A stretch of DNA of 36,235 nucleotides, from positions 1 through 36,235 of the forward strand of contig JAOPVZ010000082.1 of the NCBI GenBank assembly GCA_025965935.1. The letters are read 5' to 3'. Origin of the DNA: Frankiales bacterium. Lineage in GTDB: Bacteria > Actinomycetota > Actinomycetes > Mycobacteriales > SCTD01. Positions 13,336 to 30,891 of this stretch are shown here, piece by piece; position 1 is the stretch's first letter, and the number at the start of each line of letters is the position of its first letter. The notes below the pieces were generated by a model. The model was not told where the DNA came from. It was given only the letters and a program-made list of their open reading frames with translations, and searched no databases. Made by a program: the position numbers and the translations under genes.

Positions 13336-13407
13336 CTGACTGGGTGACAAGTGCGCTCGACCGGGCACGTACAGCGACCTCGCAGGAAGGTGGGGGAGAC
13401 TCGCCTC

Positions 13408-13995
13408 ATGGACGCGGTGCGGGCAATTGGTCCTGACGGTGCGGCGTGGATCGCGCCTAGCTGGGACGAGGTCGTGCGGGACCACTCGGCCCGCGTGTAC
13501 CGGCTGGCCTACCGCCTGACCGGCAACCGGCACGACGCCGAGGACCTCACGCAGGAGGTGTTCGTCCGGGTGTTCCGATCACTGTCCAGCTACACGCCCG
13601 GGACGTTCGAGGGCTGGCTCCACCGGATCACGACCAACCTGTTCCTCGACCTGGTCCGCCGCAAGCAGCGGATCCGGTTCGACGCGCTCCCGGAGGACAC
13701 CGAGCGGTTGCCCGGGCGTGAGCGCAGCCCTCAGCAGCTCTACGACGACACCCACTTCGACGGCGACGTGCAGGCTGCGCTGGACGCGCTGCCGCCGGAC
13801 TTCCGCGCCGCCGTGGTGCTCTGCGACCTCGAGGGGCTCTCCTACGAGGAGATCGCCGACACGCTCGGCGTGAAGATCGGCACCGTCCGCAGCCGGATCC
13901 ACCGCGGCCGCTCGCAGCTGCGCGAGGCCCTCGCGCACCGGGCACCCGGGCTGCCGGTCCTTGCCGATGCGCCTGTCGCGGAGCTCTCGGCGTGA
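13408..13995 (+). CDS. sigE: ECF RNA polymerase sigma factor SigE
   Basis: This 195-residue ECF sigma factor closely resembles mycobacterial Sig[34 protein letters not shown] and FVRVFRSL plus [17 protein letters not shown] form sigma region 2 (about residues 20-95), and [24 protein letters not shown] with the [15 protein letters not shown] helix-turn-helix form region 4 (about 130-185). The long N-terminal extension of mycobacterial SigE is absent. It should direct RNA polymerase to envelope-stress promoters. ATG 13408 has GGGGGAG nine bases upstream. Its stop overlaps the anti-sigma gene (GTGA), the classic sigma/anti-sigma coupling. Confidence 0.93.
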
Positions 13996-14486
13996 GCGCG
14001 CACCTGGGGCAGGCCGTCAACACCTTCGTCGACGGCGAGCTGGACCCGACGCGTGAGGACGAGGTGCTCGCGCACCTCGCCTGGTGCGGCAGCTGCCGCA
14101 CGGACGTGGCGACGCTGCGCGGCTTCAAGGCCGCCCTCCGCCAGACCGGCCCCCGGCTGCCGAGCGACCTGTCCGCCCGCCTCATGGCGGTGAGCACGTT
14201 CCCGACCACCCCGGTGAGGCACCCCCGGCGCCGGCCCACCGTCCACGTCACGCCGCACCTCAGCCCGCGGCTCCGTCGTACCGCTGTGTCCGGAGCCTTC
14301 GTGGTCCTCGGTCTGGGTGGCGCCCTCAGCCTGGCCGGCCCGCCGCCGAGCCAGCCGGTCGCGCCGGTCGACCCGACGAACGCCGGTTTCGTCGTCGACC
14401 ACGGCAAGGTGTCCGGTGAAGTGCCGTTCAGCACGATCGACTTCCTCCCTGCGTCAGCGCGGCGTTCGGCCAGCCCGGCGCCGTGA
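13992..14486 (+). CDS. rseA: Zinc anti-sigma factor, RseA-like, membrane-anchored
   Basis: The 164-residue protein carries a zinc anti-sigma (ZAS/zf-HC2) domain: His4 and the H28-x3-C32-x2-C35 motif in HLAWCGSC, followed by helical sequence that should clamp SigE. A single hydrophobic segment near residues 97-116 ([20 protein letters not shown]) can span the membrane and leaves a short exported tail. Mycobacterial RseA occupies the same place after sigE but is usually soluble, so the helix here would link the anti-sigma factor to an outside signal. It overlaps sigE by 4 bases upstream and rseB by 4 bases downstream, giving coupled and roughly equal output. Confidence 0.9.
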
Positions 14487-15517
14487 GCCGGCTCCGGCTC
14501 CTGCTGCTGCTCGGCTGCTTCGGAGCTCTCGTCAGCGGGGGCCCTGTGCTGGCGTGCGTCGCCCCCGACCCCGCTGAGCCGGCGACGTCGCCGGCCCGCT
14601 CCGCGACGGCGCTCGGGCTGCTGGAACGGGCCGCCACGGTCACCCGCAGCATGCCGTGGCATGGCACCCAGAACGTGCTGAGCACGCACGGCGACATGCC
14701 GAGCTTCGACATCCTGGACGTGGAGCACCACCCGGGTGCCGGCAGCACCGTCGTCGGCCTCGCCGACAGCTGGCGCACCGTCGCGCCCGACCTCATCGAC
14801 GACGCGCTGTTCGCGCTGCTGGCCCGCCACTACGACCTGACGGTGGTGGGTGCGCGGCTCTGCGGCGGCCGTCCGACCACGCTCGTCGAGGCCCGCAGGC
14901 CTGGCCAGACCGGGCCGAGCGCGGTGGCGGGCAGGTTCTGGATCGACAGTGCGACGCACATGGTGTGGCGGCGCGACGTCCTCGACGACGACGGCGCGGT
15001 CGTCGTGAGCAGCTCCTTCTCGGCGCTCGGCTTCATGAAGGGCAAGCACCCCGTCGAACCCACTGCCAGCACGCCGGCGACGTCCACGCACCTCGACGAC
15101 CACCAGGTCCAGCAGCTCATCGACGAGGGCTGGCCGATCGTCGACCACCTGCCGTCCGGGCTGGAGCTGTTCGACGCCCTGCTGCACCCCGACGGCGTCG
15201 TGCAGCTGTCGTACTCCGACGGCCTGTCCACCTTGTCGCTGTTCGTCCAGCAGGGCTCGCTGCCCGCCGGCACCGGCGGCCCGCAGCGCGAGGTCGGCGG
15301 CGAGATGGTCCACGTCGCGAGCAACGCTCCCGAGCAGCTGGTGTGGGCCGGCGGTGGCCGTACCTGGACGCTGGTCTCCGACGCCTCGGAGGCCACGATC
15401 GACCAGGCGGTCCTCGTGCTCCCGCACGCTGACCCGCCGAGCCCGCACGAGGGCATGGGCCGCCGGGTCTGGCGGGGCATGTCCAGGGTGGGCGCCTGGT
15501 TGAACCCCTTCGGCTAG
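14483..15517 (+). CDS. RseB/MucB-like sigma-E regulatory protein, exported
   Basis: The 344-residue protein begins with a signal peptide (RLRLLLLLGCFGALVSGGPVLA, with a Cys directly after) and then follows the MucB/RseB plan: an N-terminal LolA-like lipid-binding half (residues about 45-215: LLERAATVTRSMPWHGTQNVLS, FWIDSATHMVWRRDVLDDDG, FSALGFM) and a smaller C-terminal domain (about 230-320: PSGLELFDALLHPDGVVQLSYSDG, LSLFVQQGSLP). In proteobacteria RseB binds RseA and senses mislocalised lipid or lipopolysaccharide. The gene overlaps the anti-sigma gene by GTGA and precedes htrA, which fits such a sensor role. No RseB is present in the mycobacterial locus as I know it. A lipid-anchoring Cys25 is possible but its lipobox (VLAC) is modest. 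Confidence 0.75.
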   Translation: MSRLRLLLLLGCFGALVSGGPVLACVAPDPAEPATSPARSATALGLLERAATVTRSMPWHGTQNVLSTHGDMPSFDILDVEHHPGAGSTVVGLADSWRTVAPDLIDDALFALLARHYDLTVVGARLCGGRPTTLVEARRPGQTGPSAVAGRFWIDSATHMVWRRDVLDDDGAVVVSSSFSALGFMKGKHPVEPTASTPATSTHLDDHQVQQLIDEGWPIVDHLPSGLELFDALLHPDGVVQLSYSDGLSTLSLFVQQGSLPAGTGGPQREVGGEMVHVASNAPEQLVWAGGGRTWTLVSDASEATIDQAVLVLPHADPPSPHEGMGRRVWRGMSRVGAWLNPFG

Positions 15518-15518
15518 C

Positions 15519-15538
15519 GGGACACTGGTGTGTGTCCC
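15519..15538 (+). other. Small hairpin between rseB and htrA
   Basis: GGGACAC (15519-15525) and GTGTCCC (15532-15538) form a 7-bp stem with a 6-base loop. It occludes GTG 15532, supporting the downstream start of htrA, and could tune read-through within the operon. Confidence 0.4.
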
Positions 15539-15558
15539 CCTCGTCGAGGAGTCCTGCC

Positions 15559-16758
15559 GTGCCTGACCCGTTCCTCGCCCAGGAGACGCCGCCCACCCGC
15601 GCCCTGGCGTGGGGCTACCCGACCGAGATCCCGGGCCACCCCGGGGAGATCGGCCGCAGCCCCAGTCGCAAGGTGTTCGCGGCCACGGTCCTGGCGACCG
15701 CGCTGATCGCCGGTGGCGCCGGCGGCTGGGTCGGCTCGCGTGGCGATCACACGCAGGTCTACGACGGGTCCGTGTCGCTGGCTCCGCCAGCAGCCAGTAC
15801 GCCGGTCAGCCGGCCGGAGTCGTCGGTCGCCGGGATCGCCGCGAGGGTGCTGCGCAGCGTGGTCAGCATCCAGGTCGAGCGCGGCACCACCGGCGGCACC
15901 GGGTCCGGCGTCGTGCTGCGGTCCGACGGCTACGTCCTCACCAACAACCACGTGGTCGCGGACGCCGCGGTCGGCGGCACCATCACGGTGTCGTTCACCA
16001 ACGACAGCCTGACCGACGAGCACGCCCGGATCGTCGGCACCGACCCCGAGACCGATCTCGCGGTCATCAAGGTCATCGGCGGACCGCACCTCGTCCCGGC
16101 GACCCTCGGCACGTCCAGCGACCTGGTGGTCGGCGACCCGGTCATCGCGATCGGCTCGCCGCTCGGCCTCGCCGGCACCGTCACCGCGGGCATCATCAGC
16201 GCGCTCAACCGCACCGTGCAAGTGCCGTCGGAGTCCGGTACGGCCGCCCCACCGCTGTTCAACGCCATCCAGACGGATGCCGCCATCAACCCCGGCAACT
16301 CCGGTGGCGCGCTCGTCGACGGCGCGGGCCGGGTCATCGGCATCAACTCCGCCATCGCGACGCTCGGCAGTTCCGGCGTCGACAGCCAGTCCGGCTCGAT
16401 CGGCGTCGGGTTCGCGATCCCCGTCGACGAGGCCCGGTCCATCGCCGAGCAGCTCATCCGCACCGGGAAGGCGACCCACCCGTCGATCAGCGTCCTGGCC
16501 CGCACGGTCGGCGCCGACGGGAACGGCCCCCGCGGCGCCCGGATCATCTCCTTGACGAACGACGGTGCAGCGCACAGGGCAGGGCTGCGCCCCGGCGACA
16601 TCATCACCAAGGTCGCAGGTCGGACCGTGCACAGCGTCGACCAGCTCGTCGTCGACCTGCGCGAGCACAAGGTGGGGGAGAGCGTCGCCGTCACCTACCT
16701 GAGAGGCGGCTCCACCCGCACGGCCAAGGTTGTCCTGCAGGACAAGCAGTCCTCCTAG
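15559..16758 (+). CDS. htrA: HtrA/DegP-type membrane-anchored serine protease with PDZ domain
   Basis: The 399-residue protein has a cytoplasmic N-terminus of ~40 residues, a membrane helix (about 41-62, VFAATVLATALIAGGAGGWVG), a trypsin-like domain and one PDZ domain (about 310-395, GARIISLTNDGAAHRAGLRPGDII). The catalytic triad is intact: His131 in TNNHVV, Asp166 in ETDLAVIKV and Ser248 in NPGNSGGAL. It should degrade or refold damaged proteins outside the membrane and may take part in anti-sigma turnover. GTG 15559 has GAGGAG seven bases upstream; GTG 15532 is within a hairpin and has no ribosome site. It is in the sigE operon by order and orientation, as in mycobacteria. Confidence 0.92.
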   Translation: MPDPFLAQETPPTRALAWGYPTEIPGHPGEIGRSPSRKVFAATVLATALIAGGAGGWVGSRGDHTQVYDGSVSLAPPAASTPVSRPESSVAGIAARVLRSVVSIQVERGTTGGTGSGVVLRSDGYVLTNNHVVADAAVGGTITVSFTNDSLTDEHARIVGTDPETDLAVIKVIGGPHLVPATLGTSSDLVVGDPVIAIGSPLGLAGTVTAGIISALNRTVQVPSESGTAAPPLFNAIQTDAAINPGNSGGALVDGAGRVIGINSAIATLGSSGVDSQSGSIGVGFAIPVDEARSIAEQLIRTGKATHPSISVLARTVGADGNGPRGARIISLTNDGAAHRAGLRPGDIITKVAGRTVHSVDQLVVDLREHKVGESVAVTYLRGGSTRTAKVVLQDKQSS

Positions 16759-16761
16759 TCT
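16756..16761 (+). promoter_or_regulatory. -10 element TAGTCT on the htrA stop codon, for tatB
   Basis: TAGTCT starts with the htrA TAG stop. A transcript from about 16768 would carry the strong GGAGGAGG ribosome site (16773-16780), six bases before GTG 16787. tatB may thus have its own promoter within the operon. Confidence 0.5.
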
Positions 16762-16786
16762 GAGACTGGACCGGAGGAGGCACGAC

Positions 16787-17116
16787 GTGCTCGGAGGACT
16801 GGGCTGGCCGGAGGCGGCGGTCCTGCTGCTGCTCGGCCTGTTCGTCTTCGGTCCTGAGCGGCTGCCGGGCATCGCCGCCGACGCCGGCCGGACGCTGCGC
16901 AAGGTCCGCGCCTACCTCAAGGACATGACCGACGAGCTGAAGTCCGAGCTCGGCCCGGAGGTGGCCGACCTCGACCTGCGCTCCCTCCACCCCCGCGAGT
17001 TCGTGCGCAAGCACCTGCTCGAGGACGACCCGGACGAGCCCCTTCCCGCCGTACCCGGCAGGCGGGCAGCGCTGCTCCCCGGCGAGCCCGCCCCCTGGGA
17101 CCCGGACACCACCTGA
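16787..17116 (+). CDS. tatB: Sec-independent protein translocase protein TatB
   Basis: The 109-residue protein has the TatA/B shape: a short N-terminal membrane helix (GLGWPEAAVLLLLGLFVFGPERLP, with the FGPERLP hinge) and an amphipathic helix with acidic and basic faces (AGRTLRKVRAYLKDMTDELKSEL), then a Pro-rich tail. The Glu near the start of the helix and the longer tail favour TatB over TatA. TatB joins TatC to receive folded Tat substrates. GTG 16787 follows GGAGGAGG by six bases. The place after sigE, anti-sigma and htrA is the same as in mycobacteria, where tatB also follows htrA. Confidence 0.9.
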   Translation: MLGGLGWPEAAVLLLLGLFVFGPERLPGIAADAGRTLRKVRAYLKDMTDELKSELGPEVADLDLRSLHPREFVRKHLLEDDPDEPLPAVPGRRAALLPGEPAPWDPDTT

Positions 17117-17657: not shown

Positions 17658-18806
17658 CTAGGCCTTCGCCGGCGTCAGCCCGAGCGACATGCCGGCCAGG
17701 CCGCGGGGCTTGCCGGAGATCCGCTCGGTGATGCTGAGCAGCTCCTTGCCGGCAACGCTGTCGGGGTCTGAGAGCACCAGCGGCACGCCGTTGTCGCCGC
17801 CCTCGCGCAGCCGCTTGTCGATCGGGATCTGACCCAGCAACGGCACCTCGGCACCGAGCAGCCGCGACAGTGAGGCCGCGACCGCCTCGCCGCCGCCGGA
17901 GCCGAACACGTCGACCGCCTCGCCGCAGTGCGGGCACGGCAGGTAGCTCATGTTCTCCACCACACCGGCGATCCGCTGGTGGGTCTGCAGCGCGATCGAC
18001 CCGGCCCGCGCCGCCACCTCGCGGGCAGCGATCTGCGGGGTGGTGACCACGAGGATCTCGGCGGTCGGGACGAGCTGCGCCACCGAGATGGCGATGTCGC
18101 CGTTGCCGGGCGGGAGGTCCATCAGCAGGTAGTCGAGGTCGCCCCAGTAGACGTCGGCGAGGAACTGCTGCAGCGCCCGGTGCAGCATCGGTCCGCGCCA
18201 CACCACGGGGGTGTTGTCTTTGGTGAACATCCCGATGCTGATGACCTTCACGCCATGCGCGGACGGCGGCATGATCATCTGCTCGACCTGCGTCGGGCGG
18301 TGCTCCACGCCGAGCATCCGCGGCACGCTGAAGCCGTAGACGTCGGCGTCGACGACCCCGACCCGCAGGCCCTTGGCGGCGAGCGCCGCGGCCAGGTTGA
18401 CCGTGACCGAGCTCTTGCCCACGCCGCCCTTGCCGGACGCCACCGCGAAGACCCGGGTGAGGCTGCCCGGCTGCGCGAACGGGATCTCGCGGGTCGGGTT
18501 GTCGCCGCGCAGCTGGGTCTGCAGCGCCTGGCGCTGCTCGGTGCTCATGACGTCGAGCTCGACCACGACGGAGGTGACACCCTCCAGGGCCTGTACGGCG
18601 GTGGTGACCCGCTCAGTCAGCGTCTCCTTCATGGGACAGCCGCTGACGGTGAGGTAGATGCCGATGCGCGCTGTGCCGTCGGGGTCGACCGCAGCGCCCT
18701 TGACCATGCCGATCTCGGTGATCGGCCGGCGGATCTCGGGGTCCTCGACGGTGGCGAGGGCGGCCAGGAGCTGGTCTTGCGAAGGTGTGGCTGTCTGGAG
18801 CGTCAT
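17658..18806 (-). CDS. mrp: Mrp/NBP35-type iron-sulphur cluster carrier ATPase
   Basis: The 382-residue protein has an N-terminal MIP18/DUF59 domain (residues about 8-85, VEDPEIRRPITEIGMV, TVSGCPMKETL) and a MinD-like P-loop ATPase domain. The deviant Walker A GKGGVGKS is at 125-132, the switch Asp in VVDADVYGFSVPRML follows, and the cluster-binding CPHC is at Cys291/Cys294. Such proteins carry Fe-S clusters to client apoproteins. ATG 18806 was chosen; a TAGGCT -10 ends ten bases upstream, so it may also be expressed with a very short leader, in addition to read-through from the lyase genes 26 bases upstream. mrp in this neighbourhood (near tatB/htrA and the MgtE-like gene) is also seen in mycobacteria. 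Confidence 0.92.
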   Translation of the reverse strand: MTLQTATPSQDQLLAALATVEDPEIRRPITEIGMVKGAAVDPDGTARIGIYLTVSGCPMKETLTERVTTAVQALEGVTSVVVELDVMSTEQRQALQTQLRGDNPTREIPFAQPGSLTRVFAVASGKGGVGKSSVTVNLAAALAAKGLRVGVVDADVYGFSVPRMLGVEHRPTQVEQMIMPPSAHGVKVISIGMFTKDNTPVVWRGPMLHRALQQFLADVYWGDLDYLLMDLPPGNGDIAISVAQLVPTAEILVVTTPQIAAREVAARAGSIALQTHQRIAGVVENMSYLPCPHCGEAVDVFGSGGGEAVAASLSRLLGAEVPLLGQIPIDKRLREGGDNGVPLVLSDPDSVAGKELLSITERISGKPRGLAGMSLGLTPAKA

Positions 18807-18832: not shown

Positions 18833-19681
18833 TCAGGGGTGGGGGGTGAGGGCCTGGATCTGGGAGGCGCTCTCGAGGATCCGGAGCGCGATGTCGCGGT
18901 GCAGGTTCTCCACCATCCGCCCGTCGACCGTGACGACGCCGCGGCCGTCGCGGGAGGCCTCCTCGAAGGCCTCGACGACCTTCTTGGCGTGGCTGATCTC
19001 GTCCTCGGAGGGCGCCCAGGTGTCGTTGGCGCCCTCGACCTGGGTCGGGTGGATGAGGGTCTTGCCGTCGAAGCCCAGCTCCTTGCCCTGCCGGCACTCG
19101 GCGAGGAAGCCGTCGAGGTCCTTCACGTCGTTGTAGACGCCGTCCAGGATCGCCTTGCCGGCCTCGCGTGCGCCCAGCAGTGCCGTGGCCAGGTGCGGCA
19201 GCAGCGGCGCGCGGCCGGGGACCATCGAGGCGCGGAGCTCCTTGACGAGGTCGTTGGTGCCCATCACGAGCACCGACACCTGCGGGAACGACGCGATCTC
19301 GCGGATCGCGAACAGTGCCGCCGGCGTCTCGACCATCGCCCACACCGGGGTGTCGCCGGTGACGGCGGTGATCTGCGCCAGGTGGTCGGGTCCGGACACC
19401 TTCGGTACGACCACAGCGGCCGGGCCGGCAGCGGTGGCCGCCTTGAGATCGGCTGCGCCCCAAGGGGTGTCGAGGCCGTTGCACCGGATCGTCAGCGTCT
19501 TCCCGCCGTACTCGCCGGACTGCACGGCGGCGACGGCGTTGCCACGGGCGGCGTCCTTGGCGTCGGGCGCGACGGCGTCCTCGAGGTCGAAGATGATCGC
19601 GTCGGCGGCGATCGTCTTGGCCTTCTCGAGCGCCCGCTCGTTGGAGGACGGCATGTAGAGGACCGACCGCAGGACCGTCAC
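18833..19681 (-). CDS. CitE-like CoA-ester lyase, (3S)-malyl-CoA thioesterase (Mcl2) type
   Basis: The 282-residue protein is a HpcH/HpaI-CitE TIM-barrel. It reads like proteobacterial Mcl2: [67 protein letters not shown], the long-range [12 protein letters not shown] and a C-terminal [10 protein letters not shown]. Mcl2 hydrolyses (3S)-malyl-CoA to malate and CoA after the lyase has joined acetyl-CoA and glyoxylate, in the ethylmalonyl-CoA pathway. The Mg-binding Glu and Asp and the LED region are present. GTG 19681 overlaps the stop of the Mcl1-like gene (GTGA), implying coupled production of both. Assignment between Mcl2 and a citramalyl-CoA lyase of similar length is by resemblance from memory. 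Confidence 0.8.
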
Positions 19682-20727
19682 AGCTGGTACGCCGCCTTCA
19701 GGTCGGCGTCGCGGGCGGCGAGCTGGGTGGCCAGCTCCAGCACCACCTTGCACTGCTTGAACGTCGCGTCGTCCTGCATCTTGCCGTCGATCATCACCGC
19801 GCCGCGGCCGTCCTCGCCCATCTCCTCGACCACACGCTTGGCCCAGGCGACCTCGGCGGGGTCGGGGGAGAAGACCTTCTTCGCGATGTCGATCTGCACC
19901 GGGTGCAGGGACCACGCGCCGACGCAGCCGAGCAGGTAGGCGTTGCGGAACTGGTCCTCGCAGGCGACGGTGTCCTTGATGTCGCCGAAGGGGCCGTAGT
20001 AGGCGTAGATGCCGTTGCTGGCGCAGGCGTCCACCATCCGGGCGACCGTGTAGTGCCACAAATCCTGCTGGAAGGTCGCCCGCGGCGCACTCTCGTCGGC
20101 TCCGGGGTCCTCGCGGACCAGGTAGCCGGGGTGGCCGCCGCCGACGCGGGTGGTCTTCATCCGGCGGTTGGCGGCGAGGTCGGCCGGGCCGAGTGAGATG
20201 CCCTGCATGCGCGGGGAGGCCGCGCAGATCGCCTCGACGTTGGCCATGCCCTGGGCGGTCTCCAGGATGGCGTGCACCTGCAGCGGTCGGCTGGTGCCGG
20301 CCTTGGCCTCCAGCTGCGCGAGCAGCCGGTCGACGTAGTGGATGTCGTCCGGGCCCTCGACCTTCGGGACCATGATGACGTCGATCTTCTCGCCGGCCTC
20401 GAGCACGAGGGTGGTGAGGTCGTCGAGGACCCACGGGCTGCCGAGGTCGTTCACCCGCGTCCAGAGCGCCGTCTCGCCGAGGTCCACCGAGTTGGCCACC
20501 TTCACCAGGCCCTCGCGCGCTGCCACCTTGTTCGACGCCTGGATCGCGTCCTCGAGGTTGCCGAGCAGCACGTCGACCTTCGGCGCGATGTCCGGGACCT
20601 TCGAGACCATCTTCTCGTTGGACGGGTCGAAGAAGTGGATCATCCGTGACGGCGTCCACGGGATCTCGCGCAGCGGGGCGGGCGCGCCGACCGCGAGCGG
20701 CCTGAAGAAGTCCTTCGCATTTCGCAC
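19678..20727 (-). CDS. Malyl-CoA/beta-methylmalyl-CoA lyase (Chloroflexus-like Mcl)
   Basis: The 349-residue protein strongly resembles Chloroflexus malyl-CoA lyase: [131 protein letters not shown] and [15 protein letters not shown]. These are Mg-dependent aldol-type lyases that split (3S)-malyl-CoA to acetyl-CoA and glyoxylate, and beta-methylmalyl-CoA to propionyl-CoA and glyoxylate. GTG 20727 fits a TAACGT -10 seven bases upstream (leaderless). The gene is divergent from marR, a likely regulator, and is coupled to the Mcl2-like gene. Which of the activities is used in the cell cannot be read from sequence. Confidence 0.87.
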
Positions 20728-20734
20728 GGGAAAG

Positions 20735-20766
20735 ACGTTACTCAGTGTTGCAGGTACAAGTAAGAT
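20735..20766. promoter_or_regulatory. Divergent mcl/marR promoter region with possible MarR operator
   Basis: The minus strand has TAACGT (20740-20735) seven bases before the lyase GTG, with TTACTT (20763-20758) 17 bases upstream of it. The plus strand has TAAGAT (20761-20766) six bases before the marR GTG. TTACT (20738-20742) and AGTAA (20759-20763) are inverted copies flanking the gap, and an imperfect TTG..CAA lies between (20748-20759). A MarR-type repressor could cover both promoters here. Confidence 0.55.
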
Positions 20767-20772
20767 TGGCCT

Positions 20773-21276
20773 GTGGTGATGAAGGCGACAGCCGAGCGGC
20801 TCACGGAACGTGAGCTCGGTGTCTGGCGGACTTTTCTCCGTGCGCACTCGCAGATCAATCGCAAGCTCGAGGCCGAGCTGGTCGCCGAGCACGACCTCCC
20901 GCTCGGCTCCTACGACGTGCTGCTGCAGCTCGCGGAGGCCGACGGGCGCCGGCTGCGGATGACCGAGCTCGCCGACCGGGTGCTGCTCTCGCGCTCCGGC
21001 CTGACCCGGCTGGTCGACCGGCTGGAGCGTGACGGTCTGGTCGAGCGGGTCGCCTGCGCCAACGACGCCCGCGGCACCCACGCGGTCCTCACCGAGGCCG
21101 GTCTCGGCCGGCTGCGCGGCGCCGCGCCGACGCACCTGCGCGGCATCTCCGAGCACGTGACGTCGCGGCTCAGCACCGATGAGCTCGACCAGCTCCAGCA
21201 CCTGATGCTCAAGCTCGCGGACGGGCCGCTCGAGCCGCCCGCCGGCGGTTGCGGTGCCGCCGAGGGCGTGCACTGA
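20773..21276 (+). CDS. MarR-family transcriptional regulator
   Basis: The 167-residue protein shows the MarR winged-helix plan: long N-terminal helix ([25 protein letters not shown]), a recognition region [34 protein letters not shown], the wing [16 protein letters not shown] and a C-terminal dimer helix. It should bind a palindrome, often near its own promoter, and release it on binding a small ligand. Here the divergent mcl operon is the obvious target, so the ligand may be a CoA ester or an acid from that pathway; this is inference. Three in-frame starts follow in a row (GTG 20773, GTG 20776, ATG 20779); the TAAGAT -10 spacing favours 20773. It overlaps azlC. Confidence 0.87.
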
Positions 21277-22237: not shown

Positions 22238-22988
22238 GGGCGGTGAGCGCAGCAGCCCAGGCGTCCGACGACGGGTCGAGGTGCGTGAAGTGCCCGCCGG
22301 GCACCCGCACCAGCCCCGTGGTCGGAGAGACTGCGACGTAGTCCTCGCTCTGGCTCATGGGCACGACGTCGTCGGCCGTGCCGTGCACGATGGTCGTCGG
22401 TACGCCGGAGGGGGCGAGCGACACCGGGTCGGCCACGGCATACCTCCCGGGTACGTCGGAAGGACCGCCGCCGAGCAGCGCGGCAACCGCGCCGTCGCCG
22501 AGCCCCAGAGCGTGGGCCTGGACGAGCGCGGCCACCGGCGCCTGCGGCACCGCCAGCTTCGGTACGACGTGGCTGCCCGCGCCCGGGGCGCCGGCTGCCA
22601 GCGCCGACCGGGAGGCGAGCCACAGCGCGAGGTGCCCGCCCGCTGAGTGCCCGACGACCGCCACTCGTTCCGGGTCGACCAGTCCGCCGTACCGGCCGTG
22701 GAAGGCGAAGTCGTAGGCCGCGGCAGCGTCCGTGAGCGTCGCCGGCCAGGGCGCGGTCGACGGTGCGTAGTCGACGTTCCAGACCAGGTGCCCCCGGCCG
22801 CAGAGGTCCGCCGCGACGGCGTCCTCGAGCGAGAGGTCGTAGCGGTCCCGCCAGTACCCGCCGTGCACGAGCACGACGAGGGAGCCGCGGTCCGTGCGAC
22901 CTGTCGGCAGCCACCACTCGCCCCGTTGCCGGGAGGTGCTGCCGTAGCTCTCGACGTACCGGACGGCAGGTTCGCCTGGGCCGCTCAT
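22224..22988 (-). CDS. Alpha/beta-hydrolase (kynurenine formamidase/BD-FAE-like)
   Basis: The 254-residue protein is an alpha/beta hydrolase of the esterase/lipase-like group with the HGGYW oxyanion motif (LVVLVHGGYWRDRYD), the nucleophile elbow GHSAGG, an Asp in HGTADDVVP and a His in PGGHFTHLDP. The NVDYAPSTAPWPATLTDAAAAYDF segment is typical of the kynurenine-formamidase/BD-FAE-like branch; I cannot name the substrate. No signal peptide. ATG 22988 overlaps the stop of the ATPase gene upstream by one base (TGATG), so it is translationally coupled to it and belongs to the same minus-strand operon. Confidence 0.85.
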   Translation of the reverse strand: MSGPGEPAVRYVESYGSTSRQRGEWWLPTGRTDRGSLVVLVHGGYWRDRYDLSLEDAVAADLCGRGHLVWNVDYAPSTAPWPATLTDAAAAYDFAFHGRYGGLVDPERVAVVGHSAGGHLALWLASRSALAAGAPGAGSHVVPKLAVPQAPVAALVQAHALGLGDGAVAALLGGGPSDVPGRYAVADPVSLAPSGVPTTIVHGTADDVVPMSQSEDYVAVSPTTGLVRVPGGHFTHLDPSSDAWAAALTALTAL

Positions 22989-25339
22989 CAGGTGGAGGCG
23001 CCGCCCACAGCGGTCGGCATGACGCGGGTCTCGCGGGTCAGCAGCGCCATCACGCGCTCCTCGAGCAGGACGGGCTCGACCGGCTTCGCGAGGAAGTCGT
23101 CGGCCCCGGCGTTGCGGGCCTCCCGCTCGACGTGCGACGACGAGGCGCCGGTGAAGAGGATGAGCGGCACCATCAGCGTCTTCGGGTCCGAGCGCACGAG
23201 TCGGATGAACTCGACGCCCGACAGGTCGGGCAGCGCGTTGTCGACGAGGACGCCGTCGAAGTGCTGGCTGCCGAGCAGCGTGAGACCGCTGTCCGAGTCG
23301 GCTGCGGTGACGACCTCGGCGGCGCCCGCGAGGGCCGCGGTCACGAACTGGCAGATGCTCTCGTCGTCGTCGACGACGAGCAGGCGTGGCATCTGCTGCG
23401 GGGCCTGGACCACCTCGCTGGCAGGACGGTCCACGGCGGTGCGGCACCACGGGCAGGTGCTCCACTCGTGGTCCAGCTGGCGGTCGCAGCCCTCGCAGCG
23501 GTCGCGCTGCACGAGGGCGCCGTCCCATGGGCAGCAGACCATGTCGTCGGCCAGGGCGCGGGCGCAGCTGGGGCAGCGCGGTCCGGAGACCGCGTCCACG
23601 TGGGTCGCCCGGAGGACCTCCTCGTAGGTCGTCTCGCCGCGGTGCGCCGCGGCCAGGGCGCTGGCCCGGAGGGTCGTCATGCCGTGCTCGCGGGCGGCCG
23701 CGCCGATGGCGGCCTCGGTGGGCGAGGTCAGCAGCACCTTGCGCAGTGCTGCGGTGACGGGCAGCACCTCGAAGATGCCGGTGCGGCCGCGGTACCCGGT
23801 GCCGCCGCACTCGCCGCAGCCCTTGCCGCGGGTCGGGGTGGCGCCCTCGAGGTCGGCGTCGGCCAGGCCGAGCAGCGACAGCGTGCGGGGCGACGGGACG
23901 TACTCGGCCGCACAGGAGGCGCAGGGCCGGCGGACCAGCCTCTGCGCCACCACGAGGGTCAGGGAGGACGCCACGAGGAAGGGCTCGACGCCCATGTCGA
24001 CGAGCCGGGTGACGGCGCTGACCGCGTCGTTGGTGTGCAGCGTGGTGAGGACGAGGTGGCCGGTGAGGGACGCCTGCAGCGCGAGCTCGGCGGTCTCCAG
24101 GTCGCGGACCTCGCCGACGAGGACGACGTCCGGGTCCTGCCGCAGCACCGACCGCAGGCCGCGGGCGAACGTCATGCCGGAGCGCTCGTGCACCTGCACC
24201 TGCGTGATGCCGGCGACCTGCACCTCGACCGGGTCCTCGAGGGTCACGATGTTGCGGTCGGGGGTGCTGACCTGCTGGATCGCGGCGTAGAGCGTGTTGG
24301 TCTTGCCGGAGCCGGTCGGGCCCGTGATGAGGACCAGGCCCTGGCTCTGGATCAGCGCGCTGCCGATCATCTCGAGCTGGGTCTGGGTCATGCCGGTCTT
24401 GTTGAGCAGCGGCACGTTCTCGGCCCGGGGGAGCAGCCGGACGACGACCTTCTCCCCGTGCAGGGTCGGGAGCGTCGAGACGCGGGCCTCGACCGTGAGC
24501 CCGTCGACGCTCAGCCGCGCGCGGCCGTCCTGGGAGCGGCGCCGCTCGGCGATGTCGAGACCCGACACGATCTTGATGCGGCTCACGGCAGCAGCGGTGG
24601 CGTTCTTCGGCACCGTCATCACGTCACGGAGCAGGCCGTCCACGCGGTAGCGGATCCGGAGCTCGCCGGCCTGCGGCTCGACGTGCACGTCGGAGGCGCG
24701 GGCCCGCACGGCGTCGGCCAGGATCACGTCGACGAGGCGGACGATGGGGGCGGAGTCGGAGCCGCCCTGCGCCAGCTCCTCGTTGGACTCCTGGTCCTCG
24801 TCGAGACCCTCGAACAGCGTGCTGACGTCGGCGCCGTCGTCGGACAGCGACCAGGCCCGGGCGAGCTGCTCGCGCACCTGGCTCTCGGTCGCGACGACGA
24901 TGGAGATCTCGGCGGCCCGCGTGTAGAGCTTCACGTCGTCGAGCGCGACGACGTTGGTGGGGTCGGAGGTCGCGACCCTCAGCCGGCTGCCCTCCTTGGA
25001 GAGCACCAGCACGTTGCTGCGCTCGGCGACCTGGCGCGGCAGCAGTCGGACGTGCTCGGGGATGACCATCGTCCGGCCGAGGTCCACCAGCTCCAGGCCG
25101 AGCGCCTCGGCCAGCGCCTCGGCGACCTGCGCCTCGGTGGCGTATCCCAGCTCGATGACGACGGTGCCGAGCCGCGGACGGGGCTGACCGGGCAGCACGT
25201 CGCGCTGCTTCGACAGCGCCTCGGTCAGCTGGGCGGTCGTGAGCAGCTCGTACCCGACCAGCACCTCGCCCAGGCGTCGCCTTGCGACGCCCGGTTGCGG
25301 GGACGTCGGGGAACCCTCAGCGGCAGGCACGGCAGTCAC
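22988..25339 (-). CDS. PilB/GspE-type ATPase fused to zinc ribbons and a C-terminal receiver domain
   Basis: The 783-residue protein has: (1) a GspE/PilB N-domain (about 20-165; RRRLGEVLVGYELLTTAQLTEAL); (2) a type II/IV secretion ATPase with Walker A GPTGSGKT (Lys346), Walker B DVVLVGEVRD, His-box LTTLHTNDA and the usual Cys pairs CASC/CGEC (about 473-510); (3) a second Cys-rich block (about 588-632) with CPSC, CC, CEGC and CPWC, a double zinc ribbon; (4) a full response-regulator receiver (about 650-780) with acidic Asp657-659, phospho-acceptor Asp700, Thr730 and Lys752. PilB/GspE motors extend pilins or secretion pseudopili. GTG 25339 has AAGAGG five to six bases upstream. It lies in the MgtE-like/DUF1003/hydrolase operon; no pilin, platform protein or histidine kinase is in the window. 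A receiver on the C-terminus is unusual. Confidence 0.9.
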   Translation of the reverse strand: MTAVPAAEGSPTSPQPGVARRRLGEVLVGYELLTTAQLTEALSKQRDVLPGQPRPRLGTVVIELGYATEAQVAEALAEALGLELVDLGRTMVIPEHVRLLPRQVAERSNVLVLSKEGSRLRVATSDPTNVVALDDVKLYTRAAEISIVVATESQVREQLARAWSLSDDGADVSTLFEGLDEDQESNEELAQGGSDSAPIVRLVDVILADAVRARASDVHVEPQAGELRIRYRVDGLLRDVMTVPKNATAAAVSRIKIVSGLDIAERRRSQDGRARLSVDGLTVEARVSTLPTLHGEKVVVRLLPRAENVPLLNKTGMTQTQLEMIGSALIQSQGLVLITGPTGSGKTNTLYAAIQQVSTPDRNIVTLEDPVEVQVAGITQVQVHERSGMTFARGLRSVLRQDPDVVLVGEVRDLETAELALQASLTGHLVLTTLHTNDAVSAVTRLVDMGVEPFLVASSLTLVVAQRLVRRPCASCAAEYVPSPRTLSLLGLADADLEGATPTRGKGCGECGGTGYRGRTGIFEVLPVTAALRKVLLTSPTEAAIGAAAREHGMTTLRASALAAAHRGETTYEEVLRATHVDAVSGPRCPSCARALADDMVCCPWDGALVQRDRCEGCDRQLDHEWSTCPWCRTAVDRPASEVVQAPQQMPRLLVVDDDESICQFVTAALAGAAEVVTAADSDSGLTLLGSQHFDGVLVDNALPDLSGVEFIRLVRSDPKTLMVPLILFTGASSSHVEREARNAGADDFLAKPVEPVLLEERVMALLTRETRVMPTAVGGAST

Positions 25340-25391: not shown

Positions 25392-26036
25392 TCACGCGGT
25401 GTCGGCCTCGCCGTCGAACGGCTCCGAGAGCTTCTGCGGGGGCGGCGAGGGCTCCTTCTCGGTGCGCCTGCGCTTGCGCTCGGCCCGCTTCTCGCGGTCC
25501 TCGCGCTGGAGCCGGGCCTGCTGGTCGTACACGCCCTCGCTGGTGCGCGCCACGACCTCTTCGGTGAGCTCCCTGAGCTGGTCGCGCAGGAAGTCGCGGG
25601 TCGCCGTCTCGCCGAGCGACAGCCGCAGGGCGGCCAGCTCGCGCGTGAGGTACTCGACGTCGGCCTGCAGCCGCTGGTTCTGCCCGCGATCCTCCTCGAG
25701 GGCAACCCGGTCGCGGTCGGCCTGCCGGTTCTGCGCGAGCAGGATCAGCGGCGCTGCGTACGAGGCCTGCAGGGACAGGATGAGGGTGAGCAGCGTGAAC
25801 TTGTTGGCGTAGCTGTCGAACTGCAGCTTCGGCGGCACCGCGAAGTTCCAGAGGATCCACAGCGCGCAGAACAGCGTCAGGTAGACGAGGAACCGGCTGG
25901 TCCCGAGGAACCGGGCGATCCGCTCGGAGGTCCGCCCGAAGGCCTCTGGGTCGTAGTGCGGGCGGGGGACCGTGCGCGGCGAGACCGGCTGGTCCAGCCG
26001 CGCCCGCGTCGACCGTCGTGGGGTGCGCTCAGCCAT
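25392..26036 (-). CDS. DUF1003-family membrane protein
   Basis: The 214-residue protein has a basic N-terminus, two membrane helices (about 46-67, RFLVYLTLFCALWILWNFAV, and about 80-101, FTLLTLILSLQASYAAPLILLAQNRQ) and the conserved helix-turn (QNRQADRDRVALEED), then a long charged coiled coil and a Lys/Glu tail. This is the DUF1003 family, unknown in function. In actinobacteria it is regularly next to an MgtE_N/CBS protein (for instance Rv1231c/Rv1232c), as here: its ATG 26036 overlaps the MgtE-like gene by 8 bases. The ATPase gene follows after 52 bases, so the three may be co-transcribed. Confidence 0.87.
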   Translation of the reverse strand: MAERTPRRSTRARLDQPVSPRTVPRPHYDPEAFGRTSERIARFLGTSRFLVYLTLFCALWILWNFAVPPKLQFDSYANKFTLLTLILSLQASYAAPLILLAQNRQADRDRVALEEDRGQNQRLQADVEYLTRELAALRLSLGETATRDFLRDQLRELTEEVVARTSEGVYDQQARLQREDREKRAERKRRRTEKEPSPPPQKLSEPFDGEADTA

Positions 26037-27270
26037 GGCGTCGCACCTGCCCCTCGCGCCAGTCCTCGGGCAGCACGTGGTCGAGGACGTCGTCGACGGT
26101 GACCGCCCCCAGCAGGTGGCCGTCGGAGTCGACGATCGGCACCGCGACGAGGTTGTACGTCGCCAGGTGCCGGGTGACGTCGTGCAGCGGGCACTCCGGC
26201 AGCAGCGGGTCGATGTCGGTCTCGATGACGGCGCCCAGCAGCGTCGAGGGCGGCTCCCGGAGCAGCCGCTGGAAGTGCGCGGTGCCCAGGTAGCGGCCGG
26301 TAGGCGTCTCGAACGGCGGCCTGACGACGTAGACCTGCGCGGCCAGGGACGGTGCCAGGTCCACGTGCCGGATCCGAGCGAGCGCCTCGGCGACGGTCGC
26401 ACCCGGCCCGAGGATCACGGGCTCGCTCGTCATGAGCCCACCGGCGGTGTCCTCGCCGTAGGCCAGCAGCTGCCGCACCGGCTCGGCCTCGTCCGGCTCC
26501 ATCAGCTCCAGCAGCCGCTCGGCGTCCGCCGGCTGCATCTCGCCGAGCAGGTCGGCGGCGTCGTCGGGTGCCATCGCCTCCAGGACGTCGGCCGCTCGCT
26601 CGTCGGCCAGGCCGGAGAGCAGCTCGACCTGCTCGTCCTCCGGCATCTCCTCGAGGACGTCGGCGAGCCGCTCGTCGTCGAGCGCCGCCGCGATCTCGCC
26701 GCGCCGCTTCTGGGACAGGTCGTGCAGCACACCCGCGAGGTCGGCGGGCCGCAGCTTCTCGAGCACGGCGAGCAGGTTGGCGGCGCCCTGCTCGTGCTCG
26801 GGGACGCCGAGGCCGGTGACCTCGTTCCAGTCGACGGTCAGCAGCTCGCTGCGCCGGCGCCCGCGGCCCTTGCGGACGGCGACCTTGGTCACGAGCCAGT
26901 CGGTGCGGGTCTGCTCCATCGCGACGTCGACGACGCTGGCCTCGCTGCCGTCCTCGTTCACCACGACCTGCCGGTCCAGCAGCTCGGCGAGGACGAGCGT
27001 CTCGCCGTCGCGCTGCTCGAAGCGGCGCAGGTTCAGGGAGCCCGACGAGAGGATGACGGCGTCGCTCTCGACGGACGTGAGGCGGCCCATCGGGACGAAG
27101 ATCCGGCGACGGCCCTGGATCTCCACGGTCAGGCCCAGGACGCGGGGTGCCTCGCTGCCGGCGCGCAGCGCGACGACCACGTCGCGCACCCGGCCCACCT
27201 GGTCGCCGTTGGGGTCGAAGACGGGCAGCCCGGCGAGTCGTGCCACGAAGACGCGACCGCCGGTGCTCAC
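26029..27270 (-). CDS. MgtE_N/CBS-domain protein lacking the MgtE membrane channel
   Basis: The 413-residue soluble protein has an N-terminal PRC-barrel-like part (about 1-130; FVARLAGLPVFDPNGDQVGRVRDVVV), an MgtE_N helical domain (about 150-260) with its repeated LADVLEEMPEDEQVELLSGLADERAADVLEAM pattern, and two CBS motifs (about 280-400; TAGGLMTSEPVILGPGATVAEAL, LVAVPIVDSDGHLLGAVTVDDVLD). The C-terminal membrane domain of Mg2+ channel MgtE is absent, so it cannot be a channel alone. It may sense Mg2+ or nucleotide and signal to its DUF1003 partner, which supplies membrane helices; this is inference. GTG 27270; GAGAGGTGGG lies upstream. A TAGCGT -10 may lie at 27322-27327 (minus strand). Confidence 0.87.
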   Translation of the reverse strand: MSTGGRVFVARLAGLPVFDPNGDQVGRVRDVVVALRAGSEAPRVLGLTVEIQGRRRIFVPMGRLTSVESDAVILSSGSLNLRRFEQRDGETLVLAELLDRQVVVNEDGSEASVVDVAMEQTRTDWLVTKVAVRKGRGRRRSELLTVDWNEVTGLGVPEHEQGAANLLAVLEKLRPADLAGVLHDLSQKRRGEIAAALDDERLADVLEEMPEDEQVELLSGLADERAADVLEAMAPDDAADLLGEMQPADAERLLELMEPDEAEPVRQLLAYGEDTAGGLMTSEPVILGPGATVAEALARIRHVDLAPSLAAQVYVVRPPFETPTGRYLGTAHFQRLLREPPSTLLGAVIETDIDPLLPECPLHDVTRHLATYNLVAVPIVDSDGHLLGAVTVDDVLDHVLPEDWREGQVRRHG

Positions 27271-29932: not shown

Positions 29933-29959
29933 AGCTCTTTGATGAAGCTCTTCTGATGA
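29933..29959 (+). repeat. Tandem imperfect direct repeat before the CoA lyase gene
   Basis: AGCTCTTTGATGA (29933-29945) and AGCTCTTCTGATGA (29946-29959) are near-identical and abut. The block is AT-rich compared with its surroundings, with a four-codon ORF (29942-29956, M-K-L-F-stop) whose stop overlaps ATG 29956. It could be an operator or leader. Confidence 0.55.
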
Positions 29960-29970
29960 GAGGAAGCCCC

Positions 29971-30891
29971 TTGCGCGCCAGGCGTTCCGTCCTTGCGGTC
30001 CCCGGCAACGACCCTCACAAGCTCGAGAAGGCCAAGGGCTTCACGAGCGATGCCGTCTTCCTCGACCTCGAGGACGCGGTGCCGCCGGCCGACAAGTCGC
30101 GTGCGCGCGGCCACGTCGTCGATGCGCTGACGTCCGGTGGCTGGGGCGACCGGGTGCGGACGGTACGGGTGAACGACCTGTCGACGAGGTGGACCTACCG
30201 CGACGTCATCGAGGTCGTCGAGGGCGCAGGGCGTCACCTCGACGCGATCGTGCTGCCGAAGGTGCAGGGTGCCGACCACGTCGTCTGGCTCGACCTGCTG
30301 CTCACCCAGATCGAGCTGACCATGGGCTACGAGTCGGGGGAGATCGGCATCGAGCCGCAGATCGAGTCCGCGGCCGGGCTGCTCTGGGCTGCGGACATCG
30401 CCGCGGCCAGCCCGCGCGTGACGTCGCTCGTCTTCGGCCCCGGCGACTTCGCGGCGGACCTCGGGATGTCCTCGCCCTTCGTCGGTGCCGAGCCGTTCAC
30501 CGGAGCCTTCGACTCCGCGCTGCTCACCATCCGGGCGGCGGCCACGACCGCTGACGTGCAGGCGATCGACGGGCCCTGGCAGCGGGTCGCCGACCTTGAC
30601 GGCTTCCGGGCCCGCGCCACTCGCAGCGCCGCGCTCGGGTTCGACGGCACCTGGGTCCTGCACCCGTCCCAGGTGGACATCGCGCACGAGGTCTTCAGCC
30701 CGACCCGGGAGGCCTTCGACCGGGCGCGCGAGGTGGTCGCCGTTGTCGACGAGGGTCGCGGGGTCGCGATGCTCGGCGACGTCATGGTCGACGAGGCCAG
30801 TCGCAAGCTCGCCGAGCGCACCGTGGCCCGCGGGCTGGCGGGAGGTCTGGGTGAGCAGTCTCACGCCCCCGAGGTGGCTACTGATCAGTAG
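29971..30891 (+). CDS. CoA-ester lyase, HpcH/HpaI-CitE family (third copy)
   Basis: The 306-residue protein is another Mg-dependent HpcH/HpaI-CitE lyase: RARRSVLAVPGNDPHKLEKA, DAVFLDLEDAVPPADK, DAIVLPKVQGADHV, EPQIESAAGLLWAADI, LVFGPGDFAADLGM, GFDGTWVLHPSQVDIAHEVFSPT and AMLGDVMVDEASRKLAER. It belongs to a branch different from the two at 18.8-20.7 kb (Mcl1-like). I chose TTG 29971 because relatives begin at M-RARRS and AGAGGA (29959-29964) ends six bases before it; ATG 29956 adds five residues but has no ribosome site. The acyl-CoA dehydrogenase gene follows, suggesting one degradative pathway for a branched or hydroxy-acid CoA ester. Which ester is unknown. Confidence 0.85.
   Translation: MRARRSVLAVPGNDPHKLEKAKGFTSDAVFLDLEDAVPPADKSRARGHVVDALTSGGWGDRVRTVRVNDLSTRWTYRDVIEVVEGAGRHLDAIVLPKVQGADHVVWLDLLLTQIELTMGYESGEIGIEPQIESAAGLLWAADIAAASPRVTSLVFGPGDFAADLGMSSPFVGAEPFTGAFDSALLTIRAAATTADVQAIDGPWQRVADLDGFRARATRSAALGFDGTWVLHPSQVDIAHEVFSPTREAFDRAREVVAVVDEGRGVAMLGDVMVDEASRKLAERTVARGLAGGLGEQSHAPEVATDQ

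Follow-up and report, generated by a model that had tools for sequence, protein, structure and literature searches.

A second PilB-type motor ATPase fused to a double zinc ribbon and a complete receiver domain in Actinomycetota and Acidobacteriota

Type IV pilus motors are commonly described as being controlled by separate regulators and by second messengers. Does the locus that we analyzed encode a motor that carries its own response-regulator switch? The window, by which we mean the whole stretch of DNA that was analyzed, is 36,235 nucleotides from a Frankiales bacterium (contig JAOPVZ010000082.1 of assembly GCA_025965935.1). The original prediction was that one of its genes encodes a PilB/GspE-type ATPase ending in a double zinc ribbon and an intact receiver, and that a phosphorelay could switch a pilus or secretion motor directly. 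We see an even chance that the protein is an accessory extension-type motor ATPase of type IV pili (a second PilB, encoded away from the pilus operon) with its own response-regulator switch.

Genes in the window were called with a simple custom gene caller and annotated with Pfam (Table 1). The predicted boundaries and architecture of the motor gene were borne out, but the strand had to be corrected to minus: a single open frame of 783 amino acids begins with a GTG at 25339 and ends with the stop codon at 22990-22988. The plus-strand frame over the same interval is open too, but we rejected it as a shadow of the high G+C content, as the Pfam and PDB matches sit on the minus-strand reading. The choice of start codon is uncertain; conservation among relatives starts at about residue 20.

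Table 1. Features of the window and the basis for each assignment (residue numbers refer to the motor protein)
Feature	Coordinates	Strand	Basis
Second-PilB motor gene (MshEN-type N-domain, T2SSE, double zinc ribbon, receiver)	22988..25339	-	783 aa frame, Pfam, relatives
MshEN-type N-domain (residues 20-161)	24857..25282	-	Pfam MshEN 80-161; motif comparison with PMC5013675
T2SSE motor ATPase core (residues 195-577), Walker A/B, four-Cys C-module	23609..24757	-	Pfam, PDB matches, alignment, Foldseek
Double zinc ribbon (residues 589-632)	23444..23575	-	Alignment; Pfam DZR in homologues
Receiver (REC) domain, residues 651-768	23036..23389	-	Pfam, alignment, AlphaFold2
Receiver acidic triad Asp657-659	23363..23371	-	Sequence, alignment
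Phospho-acceptor Asp700 codon	23240..23242	-	Sequence, alignment, AlphaFold2
Switch Thr730 codon	23150..23152	-	Sequence, alignment, AlphaFold2
Conserved Lys752 codon	23084..23086	-	Sequence, alignment, AlphaFold2
DUF1003 membrane protein, conserved upstream neighbour	25392..26036	-	Gene call, Pfam
PRC-barrel/MgtE_N/CBS protein, conserved neighbour	26029..27270	-	Gene call, Pfam
Mrp/ApbC P-loop NTPase, most widely conserved neighbour of the second-PilB clade in Actinomycetota	17658..18806	-	Pfam, synteny
Sigma factor	13390-13992	+	Gene call, synteny
Anti-sigma position	13992-14486	+	Homology cluster and position; no Pfam match in window
RseB-like	14483-15517	+	Homology cluster and position; no Pfam match in window
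HtrA	15559-16758	+	Gene call, synteny
TatB	16787-17116	+	Gene call, synteny

The Pfam T2SSE match (residues 195-577) scores 422.9 bits. The Walker A motif (GPTGSGKT, 340-347) and the Walker B motif (GEVRD, 409-413) are invariant among relatives, except for V411 of Walker B, and so is the zinc motif of the C-module (C473, C476, C508, and C511). With this T2SSE score and with the PDB matches, there is no doubt that the motor is of the PilB/GspE type, with its catalytic motifs intact. The nearest solved structures are the extension ATPases PilB and PilF, which lie far above PilT among the PDB matches; Foldseek also puts PilF and PilB first. The protein misses the NCBIfam cut-offs for PilB (TIGR02538; 558.7 vs. 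675.65 bits), GspE (TIGR02533; 555.3 vs. 630.25 bits), and TfpB (NF053534; 419.4 vs. 850 bits).

The predicted ATPase stands, but an MshEN-type N-terminal domain with a degraded c-di-GMP site had been overlooked (Pfam MshEN, residues 80-161, 59.7 bits). The published c-di-GMP motif of MshEN domains consists of two 24-residue motifs joined by a 5-residue spacer (PMC5013675). In the window protein, a Gly of motif I is replaced by Glu, the final Gln of motif II is replaced by Ala, and the spacer has 10 residues instead of 5; neither the strict nor the relaxed form of the motif matched. Because the motif is degraded, binding of c-di-GMP by this domain is doubtful, and we downgraded c-di-GMP control as a candidate for the window's family. 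Several relatives are closer to the motif than the window protein is.

The double zinc ribbon is present as predicted, with C589/C592/C603/D606 and C615/C618/C629/C632 as its ligands. In the window's family, the first knuckle has Asp (CPWDG) as its fourth ligand, where other lineages have Cys. The seven ribbon cysteines are invariant in an alignment of 12 full-length copies, namely the window's and those of 11 relatives. The receiver follows (Pfam Response_reg, residues 654-763, 71.1 bits), and Asp657-659, Asp700, Thr730, and Lys752 are all at the predicted positions. D658, D659, D700, T730, and K752 are invariant in the same 12 copies, and the phosphorylation residues are retained in distant fusions as well. 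In the AlphaFold2 model (mean pLDDT 84 for the whole chain), the receiver forms a full (beta-alpha)5 fold with block pLDDT of 81-96; D700 ends beta3, T730 ends beta4, and K752 directly follows beta5. The domain thus has everything expected of a phosphorylatable receiver: the acidic pocket, the acceptor Asp, the switch Thr, the Lys, and the fold. The motor core of the model is PilB-like. The ribbon is modeled with low confidence (pLDDT around 60), and with a pTM of 0.59, the model leaves domain packing and the placement of the receiver on the motor unfixed.

The source genome is a fragmented MAG (315 contigs, 85% complete), which makes it natural to ask if the fusion arose from a frame error, a misassembly, or a functionless chance fusion. 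In a search of 61 genomes, we found full-length copies in the genus and family that are 72-89% identical, and the fusion lies in one open frame in all 12 aligned copies, which come from separate assemblies. More broadly, the identical architecture occurs in about 20 independent assemblies from two phyla. Pairwise dN/dS (Nei-Gojobori) spanned about 0.06-0.23 in the ATPase, 0.11-0.43 in the receiver, and 0-0.53 in the ribbon, against about 0.3-2.4 in the short linker; single values are rough, given short stretches and high G+C content. Purifying selection acts on the receiver and the ribbon and leaves the linker free. The conserved one-frame copies and the pattern of dN/dS therefore exclude a sequencing or assembly fusion, and they show that the added domains are under selection. 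We consider an artifact or a chance fusion to be scarcely credible and already refuted by conservation. The original prediction had named two findings that would speak against it: a frame error joining two genes, which was not seen in any of these copies, and loss of the receiver residues in all relatives, which did not occur, even if the receiver or its residues are missing from some relatives.

The prediction had also proposed a search for GspE-receiver fusions, and we queried GTDB genomes with an alignment of the tail of the protein. Close relatives are from Frankiaceae/Frankiales MAGs, and the same architecture is found in Euzebyaceae, in two unplaced Actinomycetota, and in one acidobacterium. 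So, two phyla share an ATPase with intact catalytic motifs that is continued in frame by a double zinc ribbon and a complete receiver, and we no longer regard the receiver as a gain restricted to the window's family. Among 396 evenly sampled Actinomycetota genomes, six (including the window's own) have the full fusion and about seven have the ribbon only. For 297 genomes of Acidobacteriota sampled around the acidobacterium, the corresponding counts are two and about eight. In the open-access literature that we searched, we found no description of a PilB or GspE fused to a receiver; protein databases were outside that search, and it is likely that the MshEN-T2SSE-DZR-REC architecture has been annotated automatically before.

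Some relatives have only part of the tail. The ribbon occurs without a receiver in Kineosporia sp. A_224, G120, and others, and a receiver occurs without a ribbon in L153. In L047 and L158, the receiver is decayed and the phosphorylation residues are gone. L047:977-3241, from a member of the Frankiaceae, is a natural pseudo-receiver (VDSDP / VQHSLPD / LRTPVD) on an otherwise intact protein. In G219, the decayed copy L158 and an intact fusion are tandem neighbours: of these two second PilBs (L159:9682-11979 and L159:11999-14212), one has an intact ribbon and receiver and the other is ribbonless with a decayed receiver. Because several relatives have lost the receiver and two have only a decayed one, the motor can do without it. 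Lineages without the receiver would retain the second motor without a phospho-switch.

A quick tree of the ATPase groups the second PilBs of Actinomycetota in a single clade (SH-aLRT 99) and sets the canonical actinobacterial PilBs apart (99); the positions of two long branches, L057 and L150, are unsure. In the receiver tree, 22 of 24 fused receivers fall on one side, with modest support (SH-aLRT 82). With a careful tree and an AU test, one origin for all of the fused receivers was not rejected (p = 0.27). The sequences suggest a single origin of the fused receivers within Actinomycetota. On the simplest reading, the fusion is old and the receiver has been lost repeatedly; repeated gain is also compatible with the data.

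The genes around the motor run in this order: sigma factor, anti-sigma position, RseB-like, HtrA, TatB, Mrp, further genes, a hydrolase, the motor gene, DUF1003, and MgtE_N/CBS. The plus-strand stretch at 13390..17116 is the envelope-stress part of the locus. The original prediction was right about the MgtE-like, DUF1003, and hydrolase neighbours, but it overlooked that second PilBs of this kind are widespread and that their mrp/htrA/tatB/sigE locus is conserved. In most Actinomycetota, the second PilB adjoins mrp, and the locus comprises sigE, rseA, htrA, tatB, mrp, DUF1003, and MgtE_N. Because the arrangement of PilB beside Mrp, with HtrA and TatB nearby, is seen again in other families and classes, the position next to Mrp is old in the phylum. 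As had been noted, no pilin, platform, or histidine kinase gene is among the window genes that we scanned, and no pilin, platform, or conserved kinase gene was found beside the second PilB in other actinobacterial loci either. Three genes that flank the motor gene on both sides (18833-19681, 19678-21273, and 29956-30891) form one homology cluster; Pfam identifies the first and the third as HpcH/HpaI aldolase/citrate-lyase, and relatives have more copies in the same locus.

Kinase genes near the fusion are found mainly in acidobacterial relatives. In G704, a small soluble HisKA+HATPase gene lies about 150-200 bp downstream of the fusion on the same strand. The other acidobacterial genome with the fusion (L057) has a kinase within 1 kb and kinase and receiver genes within about 1-4 kb. 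As there is no conserved adjacent kinase in Actinomycetota, a partner in that phylum would have its gene at another locus. HD-GYP, kinase, and NarL genes next to single actinobacterial fusions were set aside as isolated cases. In G298, an HD_5/HD gene (HD-GYP-like; L163:1205-2554) lies directly before the fusion gene. Among the acidobacterial ribbon-bearing PilB genes, two are directly followed by DnaJ-domain genes (L057:10719-11522 and L189:9649-10506), and another meets, end against end, a gene for a protein with a zinc ribbon, a Ser/Thr kinase, and an FGE-sulfatase domain (L190:5843-8557).

Which machine would the motor serve? The original prediction left the choice between a pilus and a secretion motor. 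The PilB/GspE type holds, but the prediction missed that relatives have a separate canonical operon with PilB, PilT, PilC, and pilin. In a relative from the same family, this operon (Roadblock, DUF4388, MglA-like GTPase, PilB, PilT, PilC, and pilin) lies away from the second PilB; around the window gene, the PilT, PilC, and pilins of a canonical type IVa operon are absent. The leading Roadblock, DUF4388, and MglA-like GTPase genes (L132:5122-7390) recall the polarity modules of gliding bacteria. Strong PilC-type platform genes occur in 16 of 19 sampled genomes that have the second-PilB clade, vs. 194 of 377 that do not (Fisher p = 0.008, uncorrected for relatedness). For genomes that are at least 90% complete, the counts are 13/14 vs. 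150/286 (p = 0.004, also uncorrected). Because relatedness is uncorrected, this co-occurrence is support, not proof, for a link to pili. Also, in an acidobacterium, a ribbon-only homologue is encoded directly after a gene with N_methyl and T2SSG domains (type IV pilin-like). Both observations weigh against the idea that the motor serves another machine linked to envelope stress, such as one for secretion or envelope maintenance with its own platform, and we found no alternative platform gene conserved at the locus. On the other hand, the second PilB is syntenic with sigE, rseA, htrA, tatB, mrp, DUF1003, and MgtE_N across Actinomycetota, and not with pilus genes, which suggests that an envelope-stress or export role fits the conserved locus as readily as a pilus role. 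The fusion genome G105, which is rated 100% complete, has no platform genes other than Tad-like ones, and the window's own genome (an 85% complete MAG) gave no strong PilC match. Overall, we think that another machine is unlikely.

It is also conceivable that the receiver is a docking or localization module: its phosphorylation state, or its fold alone, would site the motor at the pole or the membrane or bind a regulator, and ATP turnover would be unchanged. Receivers that act via localization exist, as in FrzS and FimX-type proteins. A free linker and a poorly fixed ribbon suit a tethered module, and two relatives retain the domain after losing the phosphorylation residues. But all 12 aligned copies from the family have the phosphorylation set unchanged, and distant fusions keep it, which argues for phosphorylation in most lineages; localization that is controlled by phosphorylation is still compatible with this. 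We view docking without an effect on turnover as a rather unlikely account. As for the direct phosphorelay switch that was originally predicted, the invariant residues, the dN/dS of the receiver, and the soluble kinase in G704 all fit it, so the reading is partly supported, and a phosphorelay that directly switches the motor is plausible.

If the protein is indeed an accessory pilus motor with its own switch, then a histidine kinase would phosphorylate Asp700, and the changed face of the receiver might alter hexamer assembly, ATP turnover, or recruitment to a PilC platform that the second motor may share with the canonical PilB. Pilus extension could thereby track an environmental or envelope-stress signal. 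The ribbon may be a rigid or protein-binding connector between the motor and the receiver.

More generally, it is possible, if somewhat short of an even chance, that phosphorylation by a histidine kinase controls a force-generating pilus or secretion ATPase within one polypeptide, in an old family of second motors that spans Actinomycetota and Acidobacteriota and lies in an envelope-stress locus in Actinomycetota. A motor with its own receiver would make phospho-gating of a secretion ATPase directly testable. This family of second motors is uncharacterized, and it is found in monoderm bacteria, in which pilus regulation is poorly known.

Among known systems, the closest are PilB and PilF from Geobacter (5tsg/5zfr) and Thermus (5oiu/6f8l), which share the MshEN-type N-domain, the T2SSE core, the Walker motifs, and the zinc motif of the C-module. 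Their cores are 47-48% identical to the window motor, with TM-scores of up to about 0.9. The window motor differs by its extra double zinc ribbon and receiver and by its location outside a pilus operon. In Acinetobacter baylyi, TfpB is a second and phylogenetically distinct extension motor beside PilB (PMC8213720); no mention of a ribbon or receiver was found there, and the window motor scores far under the TfpB cut-off. MshE-type motors that are controlled by c-di-GMP (PMC5013675) have the same family of N-domain and also carry a fused signalling domain, but in the window protein, the c-di-GMP motif is broken and the signalling domain is a receiver at the C terminus. Finally, control of PilB, as reviewed in PMC11656802, includes response regulators that act in trans (PilG/PilH and PdeR-FimX-PilZ-PilB). 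These also bring two-component input to type IV pilus control, but there the regulator is a separate protein, and here it is within the motor chain.
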